From NCBI GenBank assembly GCA_017983675.1, contig JAGOAZ010000002.1, positions 124,001 through 188,000 on the forward strand: 64,000 nucleotides of DNA, read 5' to 3'. This document shows positions 1 to 13,080 of the stretch, in pieces. The translations under genes and the position numbers were made by a program. The first letter of the stretch is position 1; each line of letters opens with the position of its first letter. Origin of the DNA: Fluviicola sp. (GTDB lineage Bacteria > Bacteroidota > Bacteroidia > Flavobacteriales_D > Crocinitomicaceae). The notes beneath the pieces are model-generated. The model saw nothing but the letters and a program-made list of their open reading frames with translations, was not told the origin of the DNA and made no database searches.

Positions 1-83
1 TGAACAGCGGAGACAGCTCTGTTGAATTATTGACAAAACAAGCGAAAGAAGCCGCTTCGACAATTAGTCTTGAGTACAAATAA
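1..83 (+). CDS. 3' end of an unidentified gene (partial)
   Basis: An open frame runs from the window edge (first full codon at 3) to a TAA at 81-83. The visible 26-residue tail ends in ASTISLEYK. It overlaps the next gene by 14 bp, which suggests translational coupling. The tail is too short to assign a family. Confidence 0.55.
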   Translation, partial: NSGDSSVELLTKQAKEAASTISLEYK

Positions 84-1257
84 AAAACACGTCATCATCG
101 TTGGTGGTGGTCCAGCAGGATTAATAGCTGCGGCACAATTGAAAGATAGTGACTGCACTGTCACAATAATTGATCAAAAACCAACGGTTGGTAGAAAGTT
201 TCTTGTTGCTGGTGAAGGCGGTTTTAATGTAACACATTCGGAGCCAGTTCTTGATTTTATTGAGAAATACGATAATGACTGGATAAAAAAATGTGTCCGT
301 ACATATCCAAGTAAACAATTTCGTAAATATTTAAAACAAATAGGTATTCCAACCATTGTTGGTAGTTCTGGCAAAGTGTTTCCGGAAGAAATAATAAAAC
401 CTGCGCAAGTTTTGTCGGCGATAAAAACAGACATTGCGCAACACGTTTCCTATGAATTAGGCGCAACGGTGGTTGATTTTGATGCGGCAACCGTAACAAT
501 CGAAAAGGAAAGTGTTCGTTCTACGTTGCATTTCGATTTTTTGATTTTTGCACTTGGCGGAGCTTCTTGGCAAAAAACAGGATCCGACGGTCTTTGGGTT
601 TCGCTTTTCGCACAAAAAGAAATAGCTGTCTCCCCCTTTACTGCAAGTAACTCTGGTTTGATCTTGTACGACAATTGGATGTCGGAAGCCAAAGATGGAA
701 TGTTGTTGAAAAATGTAGTAGTTTCCGTTGGGAAAACAGCTTGTTCAGGCGATGTTTTATTGACAAGTTATGGATTAGAGGGGAAGCCGATTTATGCTGT
801 GAATAGAGCTTTGAAGTCGCTGGAAAAGCCTGTTATTTCAATCGATTTAAAACCGCAAATGGCAATCGAAAAAATTCAACAAACGCTCAAAAAAGCAAAA
901 AACCCAACGCAAGGATTAAAAGAATTAAAATTGGGAGAATTAGCATTGATTTGGTTGCGTCAGTTTGTTTCAAAAGAAAACTACAATTCACCAGAACAGT
1001 TAGCAAAGCAAATAAAGGCATTCAAAATAGGAGTTCAATCTTTTCGGCCAATAGACGAGGTGATTTCTTCTGCTGGAGGAGTTGCTATTGCTGAAATTAA
1101 CGAGCATGGTCAATTACACAAGTATCCTTCCGTTTTTTGCTGTGGAGAAATGGTCGATTGGGATGCACCAACCGGAGGTTACCTAATTCAAGGCTGTGTA
1201 AGTTCAGGATATGTTGCTGGTCAAGCTATTCGTTCGTTATTGATCGATGCGGGGTAA
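70..1257 (+). CDS. HI0933/TIGR03862-like FAD-dependent flavoprotein
   Basis: This is a 395-residue soluble flavoprotein of the HI0933/BaiN-like oxidoreductase superfamily. An N-terminal dinucleotide-binding loop GGGPAG lies at residues 12-17 after a hydrophobic beta strand. The family segment GRKFLVAGEGGFNVTHS is at 41-57. A C-terminal FAD-contacting region contains CCGEMVDWDAPTGGYLIQG. The physiological substrate of this family is mostly unknown, so only an oxidoreductase role is claimed. The start is TTG at 70, chosen because the Rossmann strand begins seven residues later and no ATG lies upstream in frame. Its last 27 bases form the first copy of a 33-bp direct repeat that recurs at the 3' end of the SPOR-like gene at 3689. 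Confidence 0.85.
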   Translation: MSTNKKHVIIVGGGPAGLIAAAQLKDSDCTVTIIDQKPTVGRKFLVAGEGGFNVTHSEPVLDFIEKYDNDWIKKCVRTYPSKQFRKYLKQIGIPTIVGSSGKVFPEEIIKPAQVLSAIKTDIAQHVSYELGATVVDFDAATVTIEKESVRSTLHFDFLIFALGGASWQKTGSDGLWVSLFAQKEIAVSPFTASNSGLILYDNWMSEAKDGMLLKNVVVSVGKTACSGDVLLTSYGLEGKPIYAVNRALKSLEKPVISIDLKPQMAIEKIQQTLKKAKNPTQGLKELKLGELALIWLRQFVSKENYNSPEQLAKQIKAFKIGVQSFRPIDEVISSAGGVAIAEINEHGQLHKYPSVFCCGEMVDWDAPTGGYLIQGCVSSGYVAGQAIRSLLIDAG

Positions 1258-1263
1258 ATTAAT
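1231..1263. repeat. 33-bp direct repeat, left copy
   Basis: The copy begins CGTTCGTTATTGATCGATGC and overlaps the final codons and stop of the flavoprotein gene. It matches 3683-3715 at 31 of 33 positions; the differences are G/C at position 22 and A/G at position 31. Similarity stops abruptly on both sides. Both copies are in the same orientation and bound a 2.4-kb segment. Confidence 0.9.
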
Positions 1264-1371
1264 CATGTATTTTTATTAGAAGTCAACTTTTTTATTTAAG
1301 ATCATTAATCTCTATTATTATTGAAATTTAATCCTTATTCGCGGTTTAACTCTTATTGAGTATAACTACAT

Positions 1372-1731
1372 TTAACTGTTTAAATTGAGAAGTTTTTTTA
1401 GTAGCTGAATTTGATCGTCTTTTGATTGCAGCAGTTTTTCGTAAACCTCCTTGTTTTCTTGATAAAAAGTATCTATTTTTTGTAAGTACCCTGTTGCTTG
1501 TCCGTTATTTGTTTGTAAAAGCTGATATTTGGATTCGATTTCTAATATAATAGAAACATCAACCTTTAATATTTCTGCAATTCTATATAATCTTTCAACA
1601 GTTAATTTTGTATTTCCATTTTCTATCTTTGTGTATGCCACTTGACTTAATTCCATTTGAATAGCCATGTAATCATGCGAGAATCCTTTTTCAGTGCGAA
1701 TACTTTTTATTTTTTCTAAAACTTTTTCCAT
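1372..1731 (-). CDS. XRE-family HTH transcriptional regulator
   Basis: A 119-residue protein with a helix-turn-helix of the XRE/Cro type at about residues 5-60 (recognition region ELSQVAYTKIENGNTKLT). It is followed by a charged, probably coiled-coil tail with KLLQSKDDQIQLLKKLLNL, likely for dimerisation. This size and layout are common among small Bacteroidota regulators. It is divergent from the lipoprotein gene at 1947 across a 215-bp AT-rich region containing two 16-bp direct repeats and a GACAGA-AAA-TCTGTC palindrome, which are candidate operators. It lies inside the repeat-bounded segment. The target and signal are unknown. Confidence 0.8.
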   Translation of the reverse strand: MEKVLEKIKSIRTEKGFSHDYMAIQMELSQVAYTKIENGNTKLTVERLYRIAEILKVDVSIILEIESKYQLLQTNNGQATGYLQKIDTFYQENKEVYEKLLQSKDDQIQLLKKLLNLNS

Positions 1732-1734
1732 AAC

Positions 1735-1750
1735 AAATAGTTATTATATT
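1735..1750. repeat. 16-bp direct repeat, copy 1 (candidate operator)
   Basis: AAATAGTTATTATATT lies directly upstream of the XRE gene start and matches 1776-1791 at 15 of 16 positions. The copies are 41 bp apart, about four helical turns, which would suit a regulator binding one face. Binding is not shown. Confidence 0.4.
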
Positions 1751-1775
1751 TATTTCTAATGTAATCAATTTGTTT

Positions 1776-1791
1776 AAATAGTTATTAGATT
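1776..1791. repeat. 16-bp direct repeat, copy 2 (candidate operator)
   Basis: AAATAGTTATTAGATT is the partner of 1735-1750 in the divergent region between the XRE gene and the lipoprotein gene. It differs by one base. AT richness makes some chance similarity possible. Confidence 0.4.
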
Positions 1792-1904
1792 GATCGAAAA
1801 TTCAAATACATTTGTTATTATAATCCTACTACTACTATTTGAATACTACTATTTTGAGTGCACGCAAAATAAATTTCTCAAAGTTTTATTGTAAGATTCA
1901 TTTT

Positions 1905-1919
1905 GACAGAAAATCTGTC
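1905..1919. promoter_or_regulatory. Inverted repeat upstream of lipoprotein gene
   Basis: GACAGA-AAA-TCTGTC is a perfect 6-3-6 palindrome 27 bp upstream of the ATG at 1947. It could bind the adjacent XRE regulator or form a small 5' hairpin. It resembles neither the promoter boxes nor the TGTCA-N3-TGACA sites found later in the window. Confidence 0.4.
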
Positions 1920-1946
1920 CAAAATTTAATTTAATAGCTAAAAAAG

Positions 1947-2951
1947 ATGAAAAAATTATCTTTCATGCTTTTGCTTTCCGTTGGTTTTACGATGGTAGCA
2001 TGTGAAAAAGCAGAAAACAAAAAATCAGAAGTTAGTTTTAGAAAAGAAATTGCAAATTTCGAAACTTCAGATGATCTATTTAATGAGATCAAAAAATTAA
2101 GAGAAATGTCGTTGGAAGACTTGAAGAAGTATGAAGAATCCAAGGGATATCTTTCTTTCGGAAGACATTGTGACGAATTGTATGCATCAATTGATTTTGA
2201 AAACATCAAAACTGAAGATGAATATTATGATTTAGCAAATAAAAACTCTGATTATCTTGAAATTATTGAAAAAGATGGAGAAAAGTATTTTGAAGCAAAA
2301 TTAGCAACAAATCCTTATCGTTATGTAATTAATAAAGATAATTTGTTTCAATGTGGTGTTCGAATTTACAAAGTTTTTGAAGATGGTGTTGTTTCAACGC
2401 ATGTGTCAAATAAAAGTAAGTTGATGAATTTTAATCCTAAAAGTTTGATAAACGAAGCTTCAGATGCTATATTCCAAATTTCATATTTTGAAAATAGTGA
2501 AATATCTAAAGACACGCAAAATAATTGTGGTGCTTCTTTAAGTGCTAGCCAAACCAATGGAAGTGACCGTACAAATATGGGGACTTCACTTAGTTTGTTT
2601 CATGGTGAAAGTCCTTCATATGCATTTGGTAGATTTACACAGTTAATGAGTGATACTTATATACGACCGTATAAAAAAACTTTGGGTATTTGGTTTTATT
2701 GCAGTAGAACGATAAGTTGTGATATAAAATTAGCTGTCGATTATCTTCCTTCAACCAATGTTTGGGCAAGAGTTACTACGAGTTATTCAAATTCAGGAAC
2801 GCATCAATCTGTTTTATGGCATACAATTGCAGAGTTGGTTTGCACTGGTGGCTATTGTTCACCTCCTCGACATTATGGTGGTACAAAATCTTGGGGTGAC
2901 ACACCTTCAACCAATCATGTGTACTTAAATTGCAATCAGCATTTGTTTTAA
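1947..2951 (+). CDS. Lipoprotein of unknown function (DUF4848-like N-terminal half)
   Basis: 334 residues. A signal peptide with lipobox TMVAC gives a lipidated Cys19. Residues about 35-170, with the segments FGRHCDELYASIDFEN, NPYRYVINKDNLFQCG and YKVFEDGVVSTH, resemble the small Bacteroidota lipoproteins grouped as DUF4848. I recall this likeness and have not tested it. The C-terminal half (about 185-334) is rich in Ser, Thr, Tyr and Cys and looks like a beta-rich secreted domain without a motif I recognise. The gene is AT-rich compared with neighbours, has its own terminator-like hairpin, and sits inside the repeat-bounded segment. Function unknown. Confidence 0.7.
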   Translation: MKKLSFMLLLSVGFTMVACEKAENKKSEVSFRKEIANFETSDDLFNEIKKLREMSLEDLKKYEESKGYLSFGRHCDELYASIDFENIKTEDEYYDLANKNSDYLEIIEKDGEKYFEAKLATNPYRYVINKDNLFQCGVRIYKVFEDGVVSTHVSNKSKLMNFNPKSLINEASDAIFQISYFENSEISKDTQNNCGASLSASQTNGSDRTNMGTSLSLFHGESPSYAFGRFTQLMSDTYIRPYKKTLGIWFYCSRTISCDIKLAVDYLPSTNVWARVTTSYSNSGTHQSVLWHTIAELVCTGGYCSPPRHYGGTKSWGDTPSTNHVYLNCNQHLF

Positions 2952-2962
2952 TAAACATTTTT

Positions 2963-2994
2963 TCAGTCCCTGTGTGAATGGGGGCTGATTTTTA
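2963..2994 (+). terminator. Rho-independent terminator after the lipoprotein gene
   Basis: TCAGTCCC (2963-2970) pairs with GGGGCTGA (2981-2988) with one G-U pair and is followed by a T-rich tract. Confidence 0.6.
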
Positions 2995-3040
2995 ATTAAT
3001 TTTAATTGAATTTATTCTTTACTACTTAATTAGTACAATT

Positions 3041-3640
3041 ATGAACAACAAAATTGCATTGCTTTTTTTCTTTTTATTACTTCAAGGAAGTTTTTTTGCT
3101 CAAACAGATAGTTCCATTCATGGCAGATGGACAGTAAAGGCAAGTGCTGCACTTACTCAAACTGGAAGATATAAGCTAATAGGAGATTCTGGATTAGATC
3201 CTGTTTATACTCCCAATTACCGTTTAGAAGCAAGTTATGGCTTCAAAAAAAACATGGAGCTGGGTTTGTACATTGGCTCGAATAAACACGAGGGAGTGAT
3301 AGTAACATATTATAAAGAGTATACCAAGCAAATAGGTATAACTTTCAATTATCACATTTTGCCATTGATTTACAAAAACAAGTCCCTTCCAATTGATTTT
3401 TATTTAACTGCGCGTTATGGCGGTGTTATTTTAACAAAGCAGAAAGAATCAAAATATTATGGGTTTAATTCTGAATATGGAGCTGGTATAGGGGTAAATT
3501 ATTTTTTCCTCAAAAAATTTGGAATCTATGCTGATTATCTAATTGGTGACTTTAATTTTAGAACAGCTAGTTTTCCCGAAGAAGATGAATTACTTAGAGA
3601 TTTTAATAAAATTCGAGTAGGATTTGTCGTTAAATTTTAA
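3041..3640 (+). CDS. Secreted outer-membrane beta-barrel-type protein, unknown function
   Basis: 199 residues with a clear signal peptide (hydrophobic residues 5-18, ending FFAQ). The remainder is a series of short alternating beta strands rich in Tyr, Phe and Gly (YRLEASYGFKKNMELGLYIG, LTARYGGVIL, GAGIGVNYFF) and ends in the aromatic-terminated strand KIRVGFVVKF. This pattern suits a small outer-membrane barrel of the OmpA/OMP_b-brl type. It is the last gene of the repeat-bounded segment and is preceded by the terminator after the lipoprotein gene, so it is probably transcribed separately. No specific role can be assigned. Confidence 0.65.
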   Translation: MNNKIALLFFFLLLQGSFFAQTDSSIHGRWTVKASAALTQTGRYKLIGDSGLDPVYTPNYRLEASYGFKKNMELGLYIGSNKHEGVIVTYYKEYTKQIGITFNYHILPLIYKNKSLPIDFYLTARYGGVILTKQKESKYYGFNSEYGAGIGVNYFFLKKFGIYADYLIGDFNFRTASFPEEDELLRDFNKIRVGFVVKF

Positions 3641-3645
3641 AATTG

Positions 3646-3678
3646 AAAACGGTTGGCAACTTAAGTCAACCGTTTTTT
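3646..3678. terminator. Terminator hairpin between convergent genes
   Basis: AAAACGGTTG (3646-3655) pairs with CAACCGTTTT (3667-3676) across an 11-nt loop, with T's following on the plus strand and A's preceding. It could serve both convergent genes. It ends five bases before the right copy of the 33-bp repeat. Confidence 0.7.
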
Positions 3679-3682
3679 CTGA

Positions 3683-3715
3683 CGTTCGTTATTGATCGAT
3701 GCGCGGTAAATTGAT
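3683..3715. repeat. 33-bp direct repeat, right copy
   Basis: Right copy of the repeat at 1231-1263, matching at 31 of 33 positions. Here it encodes, on the minus strand, the stop and last residues (NLPRIDQ) of the SPOR-like protein. The left copy encodes the C-terminus of an unrelated protein on the plus strand, so shared coding cannot explain the similarity. Confidence 0.9.
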
Positions 3716-4078
3716 TTTCTCTTTTACCACAAAGCTTAGAGGAAACTGCGCTTGAATTTGCGCTTTTACACCTTCCGCTTCAAATTGCGTTCGGAAGTCG
3801 CCAACTTTTAAAAAGTAATGCGGAGCAACAAATTCTACATACGTATCAACTTTCGGGAAAAGTGCATTGAATTTCGTGCGCGCTTCATCAACAGCAGCTT
3901 TATCAGAATCAAAAGTTATTTGTAAACGGTATCCTTGCAATTGAGGTGCTGATGCGTTTCCTGCATTTTGCCCCTGACCTTTGACCAATTGATCGATGCG
4001 TTCATCTTTCACAATCGTCATTTGTGCCATCAATGAATGAAACGAAAAACACACCCCAAAAAATACAATCCATTTCAT
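3689..4078 (-). CDS. Secreted SPOR-like domain protein
   Basis: 129 residues. A signal peptide (about 1-18) is followed by a linker and, at about 47-125, an SPOR-like domain. The telling features are YRLQITFDSDKAAVDEA, the central YVEFVAPHYFLKVGDFRT and the final helix FEAEGVKAQIQAQF. SPOR domains bind denuded septal peptidoglycan, so a periplasmic cell-wall-associated role is likely, although this short protein has no second domain. Its 3' end lies in the right copy of the 33-bp repeat. The peptide RIDQ occurs both near the N-terminus and at the extreme C-terminus. Confidence 0.75.
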   Translation of the reverse strand: MKWIVFFGVCFSFHSLMAQMTIVKDERIDQLVKGQGQNAGNASAPQLQGYRLQITFDSDKAAVDEARTKFNALFPKVDTYVEFVAPHYFLKVGDFRTQFEAEGVKAQIQAQFPLSFVVKEKINLPRIDQ

Positions 4079-4396
4079 AACTTAAGTTTTTACAAAAATA
4101 GTCAAATAACTTTGGTTGAATTCACTCCAAATGTTAACTTTTTTTGATGGAAAATTGCTCAGATTTGGCTAATCGCGTATTTCAATTTATATCATAATTA
4201 CAAGTGTATTAGCAAATTGTGAAGTTGTTATGAAAACAGTCCTTATTTAGAATCGTTTTAAATTAAAAAATACTTCAAAGAAATTGTCATAAAAGTGTCA
4301 TTAAATGGGACTAATCTTCTAAATTTGCCACCGTCATAAAGTGTGTTTTCACTAGTTTGACGTCATTTTATAGGAACAAAAATATCTAATAGTCAG
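4079..4396. promoter_or_regulatory. 318-bp intergenic region with promoter of the act-cox operon
   Basis: This region separates the divergent SPOR-like gene and actA. It contains TAAATTTG at 4320-4327, an exact match to the Bacteroidota -7 consensus TAnnTTTG, 70 bp before actA. I see no clear -33 TTTG at the usual distance. TGTCA occurs twice in direct orientation near 4286-4300, but not as the palindrome found in the carbohydrate region. The rest is AT-rich, with no RNA gene or strong hairpin. Confidence 0.45.
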
Positions 4397-5734
4397 ATGT
4401 TTAGAAGTATAAAACAATGGTTTATCGGTGCGCTTTCAATGTATATTGGATTGAGCGCATTTGATGTGTATGCCCAAGATGGCGAGGGGCTTTTTAAGCA
4501 AAAGTGTGCTACCTGTCACCAACCTCACAAAGATGGAACAGGTCCGAAATTATTCAAAGTACGCGATAAGTGGGCTTCTGAAGGTGCAAAAGATGGTTCG
4601 ATTTACCAATGGGTAGCGAACTGGACTGCTGCAGCAGCTTCAGATCCATACGCTGCGAAAATTTCTCAAGTCAAAGCAACTGCAATGAGTCAGTTCCCTG
4701 AATTGGCTGGTAAGCAAAAGGACATTGATGCAATCTTTGATTACATTGATGCACAACCAGATCCTGCTGCGGCTCCTGCTGCTGGTGCGACTGGTGCTGC
4801 TGGAATGACAGATGCTGGTGCTGAGATGGAAGAAGAGGGTAGCTTTTCTTGGATTTGGATAATTCTAGGAGTTGTTTTCGTTGTAATCATCATGGCTGTA
4901 GGCGGTGTAAGAAGACAATTGAACATTGCAACAAGAGTTTCTGAAGGAAAACCTGCAAATGAACATTTGTCTTTCACGGAAGAATTCAAAGCGTGGGCTT
5001 GGAAATACAAAAGATATGTGGGAATTGCTGGATTAGTGATTGTAATTTCATTGATCGTTTCTTTGTTCTTGTCATTGTATTCAATTGGAACTGTAGAGGA
5101 ATACCAACCTTCACAACCAATCGCTTTCCCTCATGATATTCATGCAGGTAAAAATGGAATTGACTGTAAATACTGTCACAATTCAGTTGGAAAATCAAAA
5201 TCTGCAAGTTTACCAACAGTGAATGTGTGTATGAACTGTCACAAACAAATTAGTGGAAATACACCAGCACAACAAGAGCAAATCAAGAAGATTTATGATG
5301 CTGCAGGTTGGGATGGTTCTGCTTACACTGGTAAGACAAAAGAAATCGTTTGGAACAAAGTTCACGTTTTACCTGATCACGTTTATTTCAATCACTCACA
5401 ACACGTAACAGTTGGTGGTGTAGATTGTAAACAATGTCACGGTGACATGACAAAACAAAACGAAACTGCACGTGTAGTTCCTGTTAAAGAGTTGAATGAA
5501 ATTGAAGGAAATATTCCTTTAACAAAAACAACTTTTACAATGGGTTGGTGTATCGAGTGTCACGCTGAGAAAGAAATTTCATCAGGGTCATTAGACACAA
5601 AAGGTGATGGATATTACAATGAAATCCATAACCGTTTATTGAAAGATAAAAAATTGTACAATTCGTACCTAGAAGATAAAAAAGTATCAGTTAAAGAGTT
5701 AGGTGGTTGGGAATGTGCTAAATGTCACTATTAA
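4397..5734 (+). CDS. actA: Alternative complex III subunit A, multiheme cytochrome c
   Basis: 445 residues. ActA is the multiheme c-type cytochrome of alternative complex III, the quinol:cytochrome c oxidoreductase that replaces the bc1 complex. Six CxxCH haem sites are visible: CATCH 37-41, CKYCH 257-261, CMNCH 278-282, CKQCH 344-348, CIECH 385-389 and CAKCH 440-444. The first is in a separate N-terminal monohaem cytochrome c domain (about 27-120) joined by an Ala/Gly-rich linker. Two transmembrane helices follow (about 151-170 and 207-230), then the pentahaem domain. A signal peptide precedes the first domain. First gene of the operon; actB follows after 25 bp. Confidence 0.93.
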   Translation: MFRSIKQWFIGALSMYIGLSAFDVYAQDGEGLFKQKCATCHQPHKDGTGPKLFKVRDKWASEGAKDGSIYQWVANWTAAAASDPYAAKISQVKATAMSQFPELAGKQKDIDAIFDYIDAQPDPAAAPAAGATGAAGMTDAGAEMEEEGSFSWIWIILGVVFVVIIMAVGGVRRQLNIATRVSEGKPANEHLSFTEEFKAWAWKYKRYVGIAGLVIVISLIVSLFLSLYSIGTVEEYQPSQPIAFPHDIHAGKNGIDCKYCHNSVGKSKSASLPTVNVCMNCHKQISGNTPAQQEQIKKIYDAAGWDGSAYTGKTKEIVWNKVHVLPDHVYFNHSQHVTVGGVDCKQCHGDMTKQNETARVVPVKELNEIEGNIPLTKTTFTMGWCIECHAEKEISSGSLDTKGDGYYNEIHNRLLKDKKLYNSYLEDKKVSVKELGGWECAKCHY

Positions 5735-5759
5735 TCAATCCTGAACAGTAGATAAAAAA

Positions 5760-8700
5760 ATGGCTATGTCAAAAAAATATTGGAAAGGTCTTGATGAATT
5801 ACAGGAAACGCCTGCATTCATTGAGTCGAGAGATCGTGAGTTTTCACCATCCGTTACAGTTGACGAATTCTTAGGTGATGATCAATTAGCTGAAACGTCA
5901 ACAGCTCGTCGTGACTTTTTAAAGTTCTTAGGTTTTAGCGTTGCTGCTGCAACCGTAGCGGCTTGTGAAGCGCCAGTTACAAAAGCAATTCCTTATGTGA
6001 ACAAACCGGAAAACGTTACTCCAGGTATGCCAACATGGTACGCTTCGACTTTTTATGATGGTAATTCGTATGCGAGTATTCTTGTAAAAACAAGAGAAGG
6101 TCGTCCGATTTACATCAAAGGAAACCGTGATTTTGGTTTTACAGGAGGTGCAACAAATCCACAAATCATTGCTTCGGTACTTGGTTTGTATGATGGTTCG
6201 CGTTTAACTGATGCGCAAGAAAATGGTAAAAATGTTTCTTGGGATAAATTAGATAGCGCTGTTGTTTCTCAATTAAAAGCAATTGGAAAAAAAGGTGGTA
6301 AAGTTGCGGTTGTTTCAAACACAATCATTTCTCCATCTATGAAATTGGCACTTGGTGAATTAGCAACATCTATTTATGGTACTGCTGAAGGAGCAACAGC
6401 TAATTTCAATCTTGTTCAATACGATACTGTTTCTTACAACGGAATGCGTCAAGCTAACTTAGCTACGTTTGGTAAAAACAGTATTCCTGATTATGATTTC
6501 TCAAAAGCAAAAACAATAGTTTCTTTAGGTGCAGACTTCTTAGGTACTTGGTTGCTTTCAAATCAATATGCTGCTCAATACGGTGAAACAAGAAACCCAG
6601 ATGCAGATTGGATGTCTAAACACTTCCAATTTGAATCGGTACTTTCTTTGTCTGGAACAAATGCAGATTACAGAGCAATGATTAAGCCGAGTGAGCAAGC
6701 AGCAGTTTTAGCATACATCTTGAAAGCATTCAATGTGAGTTCAGGTGTAACATCAACTTTAGATAAATCAATTGCAGCTATCGCTGATGAGGCAATCAAA
6801 GCGTTAAAAGCTTCAAAAGGTGCTTCACTCGTAGTTGCTGGTTCAAATAATATTGCTGTTCAAACTTTGACGAATAAATTGAATCAAGTTTTAGGAGCAT
6901 ACGGAACTACAATTAAATTCGAAAACGAATTGAACATGTTCCAATCTGAGGATGCAAAAATGCACCAATTGGTTGCTGATGTTATTTCAGGTAAAGGTCC
7001 GGACGCACTTGTATTCATGGGATCAAATCCAGTTTATTCGTTGCCTAATGGAAAAGAATTTGCTGCAGCATTATCAAAAATAAAATTAACTGTTTCATTG
7101 GCATCACATGCAGATGAGACTGCTTCAAAATGTACGTTCATTGCTCCTGATCACCATGCCTTAGAGTCATGGGCTGATTATTCAGCAAAAGCAGGACACT
7201 TAGCAATCGCACAACCAACTATTCGTCCATTATTCAATACAGCGTCTGCATTAGAAACTGTTTTAGTTTGGGCTGGTAAGAATGTTCGTGGTGGTAAAGA
7301 TTCACGTGTAGCTTACGAATACATTGCGAAAACTTGGGAAACAGCATTGTTCCCATTACAATCAACTTATGCAGATTTCCAAACATATTGGGGAATGGCC
7401 ATTCACAACAGTACAATCGAGTTAGCTCAATTACCTGTTGCTTTGACGTTCAATGAAGCTGCATTAAGTGGCGTTGCTTCTAAATTGCCTAAATCAGGTG
7501 ATGTAGAAGTTGTATTGTATCAAAAAATGGCAATTGGAACTGGAGCTCATGCTGCAAATCCATGGTTACAAGAGATGCCAGATCCAATTACAAAAGCAAC
7601 TTGGGACAATTACATTACTATGAATCCTTCAGAAATGAAGGGGAAATATGCTACAACATTCGATCAAGAAAACGGATTGAATATGGCAACGGTAACTGTA
7701 AACGGTCAATCAATAACATTACCTGTTTATCCAAGTCCAGGACAAGCGCCTAAAACAATTGGTATTGCTGTTGGATACGGACGTGGAGAAGGAAACGAAG
7801 AGATTGGAAAATCGGCATACCAAACAAAACAATACGGTGGTTTCGAATTAGATGAAAAAGGTAACCGTTTACCAATTGGTAAAAATGCTTTCCGTTTCAT
7901 GAATTGGAATAATGGTTCATATGCTTATGATGTTGTTGGTTCGGTAGCGAAAGTTGACGGAATTTATCCAATTGCTGCAACACAAATTCACCACACGGTG
8001 ATGGGGCGTAACTCAATTGTAAAAGAGACGACATTAGATATTTACAATAAATTCGAATCAGAAGTTTATAACGAACCACACATGCTTCATACGCATGAAG
8101 GTGCCGTTCCGATTAAAGAATTTGATTTGTGGGATGCACATCCAGTAGAAAATATTGGTCACAGATGGGGTATGACAATTGATTTGTCAAACTGTATCGG
8201 ATGTGGTTCATGTTTGATTGCATGTCAATCTGAAAACAACGTTCCTGTAGTAGGAAAAGACGAAGTAAGAAGAGGTCGTGAAATGCACTGGTTGCGTATC
8301 GACCGTTATTTTGCTTCAGACGAAGAAGCTGCTGTTGGAACACGCAAAGGAGAATTGAATTACAGCAAAGCAGAAATTGCTGCTGTAAATCCAAAAGTAA
8401 TCCACATGCCGATGTTGTGTCACCACTGTAACCATGCTCCATGTGAGACGGTTTGTCCAGTTGCTGCAACAACGCATTCAAATGAAGGTTTAAACCAAAT
8501 GACATACAACCGTTGTATTGGTACACGTTACTGTGCGAACAACTGTCCTTACAAAGTACGTCGTTTCAACTGGTTTAATTATCCTTCTTACAAGAAATTT
8601 ACAGAAGTTAATCCTGCACAAGACGATTTAGGTCGTATGGTATTGAATCCAGATGTAACAGTTCGTACACGTGGTGTCATGGAAAAATGTTCATTGTGTG

Positions 8701-9066: not shown

Positions 9067-10506
9067 ATGCATAAGGAAGCTGCAATTCGTGAACCCCTCA
9101 TCTTAGGTCACAAAACGTACCATGAGATTACAGAGGATGTTTGTAAGCCGATAGAAGACAAAGCACCACGCATGTGGTATATATTGTTCGCTATTGCGCT
9201 CGTTATTGGACTATATGGAGTAGGATCAATTTTCTACTTATTAGGAACCGGTATCGGTGTATGGGGATTGAATAAGACCATTGGATGGGCTTGGGATATC
9301 ACTAACTTCGTTTGGTGGGTTGGTATCGGTCACGCAGGAACGTTAATTTCTGCTGTATTGTTATTGTTCCGTCAAAAATGGAGAATGGCGATTAACCGTT
9401 CTGCTGAAGCGATGACAATCTTTGCTGTATTTATGGCAGGTTTATTCCCATTGATTCACATGGGTCGTTTGTGGGTTGGTTATTGGACATTACCATTACC
9501 AAATCACTTTGGATCGTTGTGGGTGAACTTTAACTCTCCATTGTTATGGGACGTTTTCGCGATTTCAACGTATTTATCGGTTTCATTAGTATTCTGGTAT
9601 ATTGGGTTAATTCCTGACTTTGCAACGATTCGTGATCGCGTTAAAAAACCAATTCCAAAGAAAATGTACTCTATTCTATCTTTTGGATGGTCTGGTCGTG
9701 CTAAAAACTGGAATCGTTTTGAATTAGTATCGTTAGTACTTGCAGGTGTTGCTACACCATTAGTATTCTCGGTTCACTCGATTGTATCATTTGACTTTGC
9801 TACTTCAGTAATTCCAGGATGGCATACAACAATCTTCCCTCCGTATTTCGTAGCGGGAGCTGTATTCTCTGGATTTGCCATGGTACAAACATTGATGTTG
9901 GTGATGCGTAAAGCAATGCGTCTTGAGGCATACATCCATACACGTCACGTTGAATACATGAACATCGTTATCATGGTAACTGGTTCAATTGTTGGAACGG
10001 CATATATTACAGAGTTATTTATCTCTTGGTACTCAGGAGTAGAATACGAAGCATATGCTTTTATCAATAGAGCAACTGGACCATACTGGTGGGCTTATTG
10101 GTCAATGATGACATGTAACGTTATTTCTCCTCAGTTGATGTGGTTTAGAAAATTGAGAAGAAGTTTATATTTCACTTTCTTTATTTCAATTGTGGTAAAC
10201 ATTGGTATGTGGTTTGAGCGTTATGTAATTATCGTTACATCCATTCACCGTGATTATTTACCATCAGCTTGGAGTATGCATTACCCTAGTCATATAGATT
10301 TAGGTGTATATGTAGGGACAATTGGATTGTTCTTTGTTTTCTTCTTATTGTTTGCTCGTTTCTTCCCAGTATTGGCGTTGAATGAGTTGAAAACAATTTT
10401 GAAATCATCAGGTGAATCGTACAAAAATGATACGGCTCCAGTTCACCCTTATTTTGCAAAAAATGGTCATGCTGGACATGATCATGATAATACAAACAAT
10501 CATTAA
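9067..10506 (+). CDS. actC: Alternative complex III subunit C, NrfD-like membrane protein
   Basis: 479 residues with about ten hydrophobic helices and conserved features of the NrfD/PsrC family (for example WWVGIGHAGTLISA and WHTTIFPPYFVAGA). In alternative complex III this subunit forms a quinol-binding site in the cytoplasmic membrane and passes electrons to ActB. The C-terminus is a short His-rich tail (GHAGHDHDNTNNH) like the tails of ActB and CoxA. It is 10 bp upstream of actD. Confidence 0.93.
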   Translation: MHKEAAIREPLILGHKTYHEITEDVCKPIEDKAPRMWYILFAIALVIGLYGVGSIFYLLGTGIGVWGLNKTIGWAWDITNFVWWVGIGHAGTLISAVLLLFRQKWRMAINRSAEAMTIFAVFMAGLFPLIHMGRLWVGYWTLPLPNHFGSLWVNFNSPLLWDVFAISTYLSVSLVFWYIGLIPDFATIRDRVKKPIPKKMYSILSFGWSGRAKNWNRFELVSLVLAGVATPLVFSVHSIVSFDFATSVIPGWHTTIFPPYFVAGAVFSGFAMVQTLMLVMRKAMRLEAYIHTRHVEYMNIVIMVTGSIVGTAYITELFISWYSGVEYEAYAFINRATGPYWWAYWSMMTCNVISPQLMWFRKLRRSLYFTFFISIVVNIGMWFERYVIIVTSIHRDYLPSAWSMHYPSHIDLGVYVGTIGLFFVFFLLFARFFPVLALNELKTILKSSGESYKNDTAPVHPYFAKNGHAGHDHDNTNNH

Positions 10507-11877: not shown

Positions 11878-13080
11878 ATGGAATTTAAAGTTTCTTCAAA
11901 AGCAAAATCACTTACACTTATTCTAATGATCTTAGGATTGGCTGGAATAGCAATTGGTGTAATGATCGAATTATCCGCTAGCCACGATAGTGGTGCGCGT
12001 TTAACACAACGTTTCCTAGGTAATTTATTAATTGATAGCTTTTTCTTTTTTGCTATTGGATTAGGAGCTTTGTTTTTCTTGGCATTACAATATGCTACGG
12101 AAACAGGCTGGTATGCATCTGTAAAAAGAATTATTGAAGGTGTAGCTGGATTTTTACCTTACGGTATTGGTATGATGTTGATTACTCTTTTAACAATATC
12201 TTTGTTTAAAGGTGCAGATATTTATACTTGGATGGATGCAGACAAATTGAAATACGATGCTTTGGGTCAATCTAAAACAGCTTATTTGAATCCAGTATTT
12301 TTCTGGATAAGAACGTTAGTTTATTTTGCAGTGTATATAATTTTCTGGTTAGGCTTCAAAAAACGTTCGTTATTGGAAGACCAAGTAGGAGGTACTGATT
12401 TACACTTTGCAAACTATAAAAAATCTGCTTTATTTTTAGTGTTCTTTGCAGTTTTCTCTTCAACATCAGCATGGGACTGGATCATGTCAGTAGATTTACA
12501 TTGGTATTCAACATTGTTTGGATGGTATGTATTTGCTGGTATGTGGTGTTCAACTATGATTGTATTAGTAACGTTAACATTGTACTTAAAGAAACAAGGT
12601 TATTTACCGAAAGTAAATGAAAATCACATTCACGACTTAGGAAAATGGACATTTGCAACATCTTTCTTGTGGTCATACTTGTGGTTCTCACAATATATGT
12701 TGATTTGGTATGCTAATATTCCAGAGGAGGTTACTTACTACATGACACGAATTGAAACGTTCAAAGGTTTATACTTCGGAATGTTCTTCATTAATTTCGC
12801 TTTCCCTATGTTGTTATTAATGTCGCGTGATGCAAAACGTCATGCTGGTATTTTGACAACAGTTGGAGTCATTGTATTAGCAGGACACTGGGTTGATGTA
12901 TATCTAATGTTGATGGGTGGCTCAATGGGTCATCATGCATACATTGGAGCATTAGAAATTGGAATGGCGCTATTGTTCTTAGGATTCTTTATCCGTAGAA
13001 TTTTGGTAAACTTGACAAAAGCACCATTAACACCAGTTAACCATCCATTTTTGGATGAAAGTATTCACCACGAAATTTAA
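11878..13080 (+). CDS. actF: Alternative complex III subunit F, NrfD-like membrane protein
   Basis: 400 residues with about ten transmembrane helices, including STSAWDWIMSVDLHWYSTLF and the C-terminal GALEIGMALLFLGFFIRRIL. It is homologous to ActC and forms the second large membrane subunit of alternative complex III. The C-terminal HPFLDESIHHEI is typical of Bacteroidota ActF. It is followed after 33 bp by coxB in the same operon. Confidence 0.92.
   Translation: MEFKVSSKAKSLTLILMILGLAGIAIGVMIELSASHDSGARLTQRFLGNLLIDSFFFFAIGLGALFFLALQYATETGWYASVKRIIEGVAGFLPYGIGMMLITLLTISLFKGADIYTWMDADKLKYDALGQSKTAYLNPVFFWIRTLVYFAVYIIFWLGFKKRSLLEDQVGGTDLHFANYKKSALFLVFFAVFSSTSAWDWIMSVDLHWYSTLFGWYVFAGMWCSTMIVLVTLTLYLKKQGYLPKVNENHIHDLGKWTFATSFLWSYLWFSQYMLIWYANIPEEVTYYMTRIETFKGLYFGMFFINFAFPMLLLMSRDAKRHAGILTTVGVIVLAGHWVDVYLMLMGGSMGHHAYIGALEIGMALLFLGFFIRRILVNLTKAPLTPVNHPFLDESIHHEI

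Follow-up and report, generated by a model that had tools for sequence, protein, structure and literature searches.

A 2.4-kb AT-rich cassette between direct repeats where two genes of Fluviicola sp. meet tail to tail

Islands inserted by tyrosine recombinases are bounded by repeats of 8-60 bp and lie at the 3′ ends of housekeeping genes, which are left whole, and islands that have lost their integration and transfer genes but retained the repeats are known as CIMEs (PMC5704250). Among the Flavobacteriia, the Riemerella 10K island, a tyrosine recombinase element, is located at a tRNA-Arg gene between 53-bp direct repeats and is precisely excised (PMC6764341). In this study, we analysed a 64-kb stretch of the Fluviicola sp. 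genome (the window), in which three genes are placed between two copies of a 33-bp repeat. The locus resembles a CIME in that the cargo lies between short direct repeats at an intact housekeeping-gene 3′ end and includes no integrase or transfer gene (PMC5704250). However, this cassette and a second one described below are only 2.4 and 1.4 kb, with no ICE or IME residue and no integrase-bearing relative found at the site, and the att role of their repeats is putative. The Riemerella island also has direct repeats at a gene end, but it carries an integrase and is found at a tRNA gene, whereas the cassette described here is integrase-less and is found at a protein-gene pair.

The cassette and its host gene pair

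The features of the locus are as follows.

70-1257, plus strand: flavoprotein, the left neighbour (TIGR03862 / HI0933-like), with its last 8 codons and stop inside the left repeat copy
1231-1263, unstranded: left repeat copy (SPOR-distal, att-like), direct repeat of 33 bp
1264-3682, unstranded: inserted cassette of 2.4 kb, missing here in 12 congeners
1372-1731, minus strand: XRE-family regulator of 119 aa (HTH_3), divergent from the lipoprotein gene
1947-2951, plus strand: lipoprotein of 334 aa, with lipobox cysteine C19 and a conserved C-terminal RPYKKTLGIW motif
3041-3640, plus strand: outer-membrane beta-barrel of 199 aa with 8 predicted strands (OMP_b-brl), which partners the lipoprotein in relatives
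3645-3677, plus strand: intrinsic terminator with a 13-bp stem and with A and T tracts on opposite sides
3683-3715, unstranded: right repeat copy (SPOR-proximal), direct repeat of 33 bp
3689-4078, minus strand: SPOR-domain protein, the right neighbour (PF05036), with an INLPRIDQ C-terminus conserved in congeners

The original prediction described a direct repeat at these positions, and the two copies are indeed identical at 31 of 33 bases. According to an ungapped +1/-2 extension, this is the strongest direct repeat of the 64-kb window, with a score of 27 compared with 16 for the runner-up, and 100 first-order Markov shuffles of positions 1-8000 reached at most 18. A weak similarity extends to 43 bp at 86%, and 33 bp is the sensible repeat length. 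When up to 3 mismatches are allowed, a search of all 35 contigs of the genome (2.85 Mb) returns exactly these 2 copies of the 33-mer, which rules out the dispersed repeat that the original prediction had named as evidence against itself.

On the plus strand, the flavoprotein ends within the left copy as RSLLIDAG (stop); on the minus strand, the SPOR protein ends within the right copy as INLPRIDQ (stop). Because INLPRIDQ (stop) is read from both copies in the SPOR frame, the two mismatches are silent for SPOR. Joining the flanks leaves both genes complete and overlapping, as had been proposed; the computed overlap is 21 nt, and the repeat consists of this overlap plus 6 nt on either side. Judging from the conserved INLPRID end of SPOR and from congener flavoprotein tails (GQAIREEL and GKTIRNRLL) that resemble the repeat-encoded AIRSLL, the repeat seems to belong natively to both genes. 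The exact correspondence of repeat and overlap, which is near the minimum that selection would keep, might also be expected if the flavoprotein-SPOR region had been duplicated in tandem with the cargo and then eroded to the overlap that both genes need. However, no other remnant of a duplicated flank is present, and we consider such an origin extremely improbable.

Of 79 relatives, 76 have a SPOR homologue. In 12 congeners and in 3 genomes of two other genera, the flavoprotein and SPOR genes lie tail to tail without cargo, at spacings from a 4-nt overlap to 175 bp, and the 12 congeners have a single SPOR end. This distribution shows that the cargo-free pair is ancestral and that the XRE, lipoprotein and barrel genes are an insertion in the Fluviicola sp. 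lineage that broke neither host gene, as originally predicted. Retention of the three genes in all relatives would have pointed the other way, but only 2 of 240 family genomes have the lipoprotein. The exact 21-nt overlap is found in no relative examined, congeners included; therefore, we only infer the immediate ancestor, in which one 33-bp copy would have served both genes.

The GC content of the cassette is 29.7%, compared with 39% in both neighbours. The XRE protein would control the divergent promoter region (1731-1947); at the cell surface, the lipoprotein would cooperate with the 8-strand outer-membrane barrel. The terminator is possibly bidirectional because A and T tracts flank it. 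PADLOC returned generic HTH matches only. In agreement with the original prediction, the interval contains no recombinase gene or fragment, and it contains no transposase ORF. A DDE or other transposon was rejected because terminal inverted repeats and conserved ends are lacking and no transposase ORF lies in the interval, and an integron gene cassette was rejected because the repeat has no significant fold (z -0.13) and no integrase lies in the interval. The best explanation of positions 1264-3682 is a horizontally acquired mini-island, AT-rich and with sporadic cargo.

A second case in a sister genome

A locus with the same anatomy, L083 (G006 contig 53), surfaced when loci with XRE paralogues were scanned. 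Its host gene is as follows.

6899-8260 of L083, plus strand: gene with PD40 repeats

The 3′ end of this gene recurs at 9688-9717, identical at 28 of 30 positions and ending at the stop codon, and the 1.4-kb interval harbors an XRE gene on the minus strand and a lipoprotein gene of 136 aa on the plus strand. The cassette has a GC content of 34.5%, compared with 42-43% in its neighbours. The PD40 site is empty in 11 congeners, including G003 (88% protein identity), in which a terminator and then the next gene come immediately after a single copy; in the source genome of the window, the PD40 gene has a different neighbour at that position. No relatives of the 136-aa lipoprotein were found in 240 family genomes. 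L083 is an independent insertion: its cargo is unrelated and its anatomy is the same, but its target is the 3′ end of a different conserved gene. The original prediction had named the same cargo at other 3′-end overlaps as a finding that would support insertion; the same cargo was not found, but an independent XRE and lipoprotein cassette with a 30-bp gene-end duplication was. Because the loci that yielded this case were picked by XRE similarity, any link between XRE cargo and the anatomy is at most tentative.

Neither cassette contains a recombinase or a fragment of one. The two repeats have no common core, the inserts share neither ends nor target sequence, and no convincing motif or inverted repeat was found at the cassette ends, where a comparison with shuffles gave only an 11-bp near match, at tie level and with differing offsets. 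Therefore, no single recombinase is implied. The distal repeat copy of L083 has been kept though no conserved gene needs it, which also argues against tandem duplication followed by erosion.

Possible routes of entry

A mechanism of a known general type is the best fit to both cases, with about an even chance of being correct. Because the repeat length of 30-33 bp and the conserved-gene 3′ end kept whole match the islands of tyrosine recombinases, we give slightly better than an even chance to entry of the mini-island by att-type site-specific integration at a gene 3′ end, with the recombinase no longer carried. Several of the features that characterize CIMEs recur here, namely direct repeats within 8-60 bp (33 bp at 31/33 and, in the second case, 30 bp at 28/30), a gene end kept whole by the repeat in both cases, and an empty site in relatives (12 and 11 congeners, respectively). 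A circular form would integrate into the overlapping 3′ ends of the convergent flavoprotein/SPOR pair, a gene-end attB, through conservative site-specific recombination; the tyrosine recombinase responsible would have acted in trans or would have been lost afterwards. The repeats would then be candidate attL and attR of a CIME-like, integrase-less islet.

The search of the genome for a tyrosine recombinase that the original prediction had called for returned five PF00589 matches, none of which is linked to the insertion site. The presence in the same genome of mobile-type recombinases at a duplicated tRNA-Asp end was counted in favour of the att-type route, and the absence of the repeat cores from IMG/VR contigs and the finding of just two clean cases were counted against it. 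In 36 related genomes, 20 of which were followed for 4.6-18 kb beyond the gene, the downstream sequence has no second copy of the SPOR 3′ end; therefore, no integrase-bearing element was found there, and the SPOR 3′ end was rejected as a general att site. At the PD40 end, which is empty in 11 congeners, no integrase-bearing relative was found either.

Both copies of the 33-bp repeat have in common a CGC codon and the CGTTCG beside it, which are absent from congeners. The copies differ from each other at 2 of 27 positions, compared with 3-9 from any congener, a closeness that was also counted in favour of the att-type route. Such lineage-specific states would be expected if a resident target had been copied, for example if the gene end had been cut with a stagger of about 30 nt and then repaired around a captured DNA fragment, by end joining or by some trans-acting transposase, and the different targets and the lack of common ends in the two cases are consistent with such an event. 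However, the usual target duplications of transposons are far shorter than 30-33 bp, no terminal inverted repeats are present, no agent is known, and the striking of a gene 3′ end in both cases requires extra selection. Moreover, bacterial end joining needs Ku, which is absent from the source genome (G000) and from G006, though half of the genus (7 of 14 genomes) encodes it, and Ku-dependent end joining was therefore rejected. We regard a long target duplication of this kind as unlikely, although it is the main rival to the att-type route.

The two differences between the copies are synonymous in the first case and conservative in the second, like alleles of a functional gene end, and this pattern would fit a Campbell-type event, in which circular or transforming DNA already bearing the host gene 3′ end recombined through RecA over about 30 bp and an older insertion spread between strains. 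About 30 bp is close to the shortest length over which homologous recombination works. However, the CGC codon and CGTTCG states, shared by the two copies and unseen in congeners, count against this route, and the first joining of the cassette to the gene end is left unexplained, so that this route could spread insertions and not start them. Its probability appears low.

No third clean case was found in the sampled stretches of the source genome, G006 and relatives (~2.2 Mb, an approximate figure because the stretches overlap slightly), which indicates that the anatomy is rare and is not a background of gene-end repeats. A 33-bp repeat (28/33) around an HTH gene beside tRNA-Met in G006 (L082) is a possible third case, but it was left out of the count because it sits among repeated tRNA 3′ ends. 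A broader conjecture is that Fluviicola-type bacteria share trans-acting machinery that inserts mobility-gene-free cassettes of an XRE gene and a divergent surface lipoprotein gene at unrelated protein-gene 3′ ends, with about 30 bp copied each time and the host gene surviving. Although this would amount to an integron-like supply of envelope genes that requires neither attC nor a fixed site, we consider it distinctly improbable.

Overall, the original interpretation is largely supported. The locus illustrates clearly that a compact genome can take up a small envelope module without harm, even where two genes overlap, and the G006 case suggests that this route for moving XRE-controlled surface genes recurs among freshwater Bacteroidota. 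Cassettes this small would escape island finders that seek integrases if a trans-acting recombinase is indeed responsible.

Cargo relatives and other repeat-bearing loci

The lipoprotein has no Pfam sequence match. Its N-terminal domain resembles DUF4848 in fold (BT3222, PDB 4lb8), with a match probability of 0.99 and an E-value of only 0.028, and the model of the C-terminal domain is of low confidence. A DUF4848 operon of Bacteroides thetaiotaomicron responds to iron supply (PMC10434189), which may offer only a hint of the cargo function. The full-length lipoprotein was found in 3 of 399 genomes sampled from the order, without a further match among 395 genomes sampled from the phylum; GTDB contigs have relatives of it with 27-41% identity at 5 loci. 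A small barrel gene lies downstream of or near the lipoprotein gene at most of these loci, and the pair of lipoprotein and 8-strand barrel has a patchy distribution in Bacteroidota. No XRE gene was seen beside the lipoprotein gene in relatives whose upstream side was readable, and the cargo was not found on plasmids, phages or IMG/VR contigs.

At 4 of 7 loci (L037, L038, L039 and L104), the lipoprotein gene begins less than 600 bp from a contig end (within the first 217-576 bases), a hint that the upstream region is repeated or variable. Contig 24 of G041 (L036) carries tandem lipoprotein-barrel units of 2.1-2.3 kb each, with a nearly identical terminator-promoter-signal-peptide stretch of ~330 bp at 4718-5045, 6833-7158 and 9089-9414. 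Although this leader is nearly the same in all units, the first two encode unrelated mature proteins, and the locus is a cassette array with a common leader.

Other repeat-flanked loci were explained by a Y1/REP-type transposase (L095), terminators (L088 and L091), CRISPR arrays (L187 and L255), promoter-like repeats (L103) or tandem paralogues. A duplication of the Cas1-Cas2 type was set aside, since Cas1-Cas2 inserts DNA of spacer size. The source genome contains a full-length Cas12a gene (TIGR04330, 1528 bits) with an array (L255, 1847-5701 and 5928-6976) as well as another CRISPR locus, in which Cas9 was matched (L187, 13864-19944). It also contains tandem tRNA-Asp islands (L094), in which a 64-bp copy of the 3′ part of tRNA-Asp lies 7.7 kb away (5075-5151 and 12800-12863) and two tyrosine recombinases of ~400 aa are encoded. 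In the congeners (L218, L220, L221, L222, L225 and L227), partial tRNA 3′-end copies are located downstream of tRNA-Met, and the T-arm of most of these copies contains an inset palindrome (such as CCCGATAGCTATCGGG).

G006 has 16 XRE matches, approximately half of which are at contig ends. At several of its XRE loci, among them L076, L078 and L086, the XRE gene is divergent from a copy of one secreted protein (KLLFFAACGLSFGL...), and the XRE genes facing this protein differ from each other; these loci represent a multicopy family of XRE and surface protein genes. A T9SS-type (CHU_C) gene on contig 7 adjoins a 96%-identical copy of the 3′ end and terminator of another gene from contig 19 (L088 6140-10607 and L097), a dispersed gene duplication that carried along the end of a neighbour. 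Finally, L266 (11725-19380) contains tandem units with repeated upstream stretches ~1.65 kb apart, and one unit has a short peptide gene together with an apparent ATP-grasp peptide-modifying gene, judged by eye.
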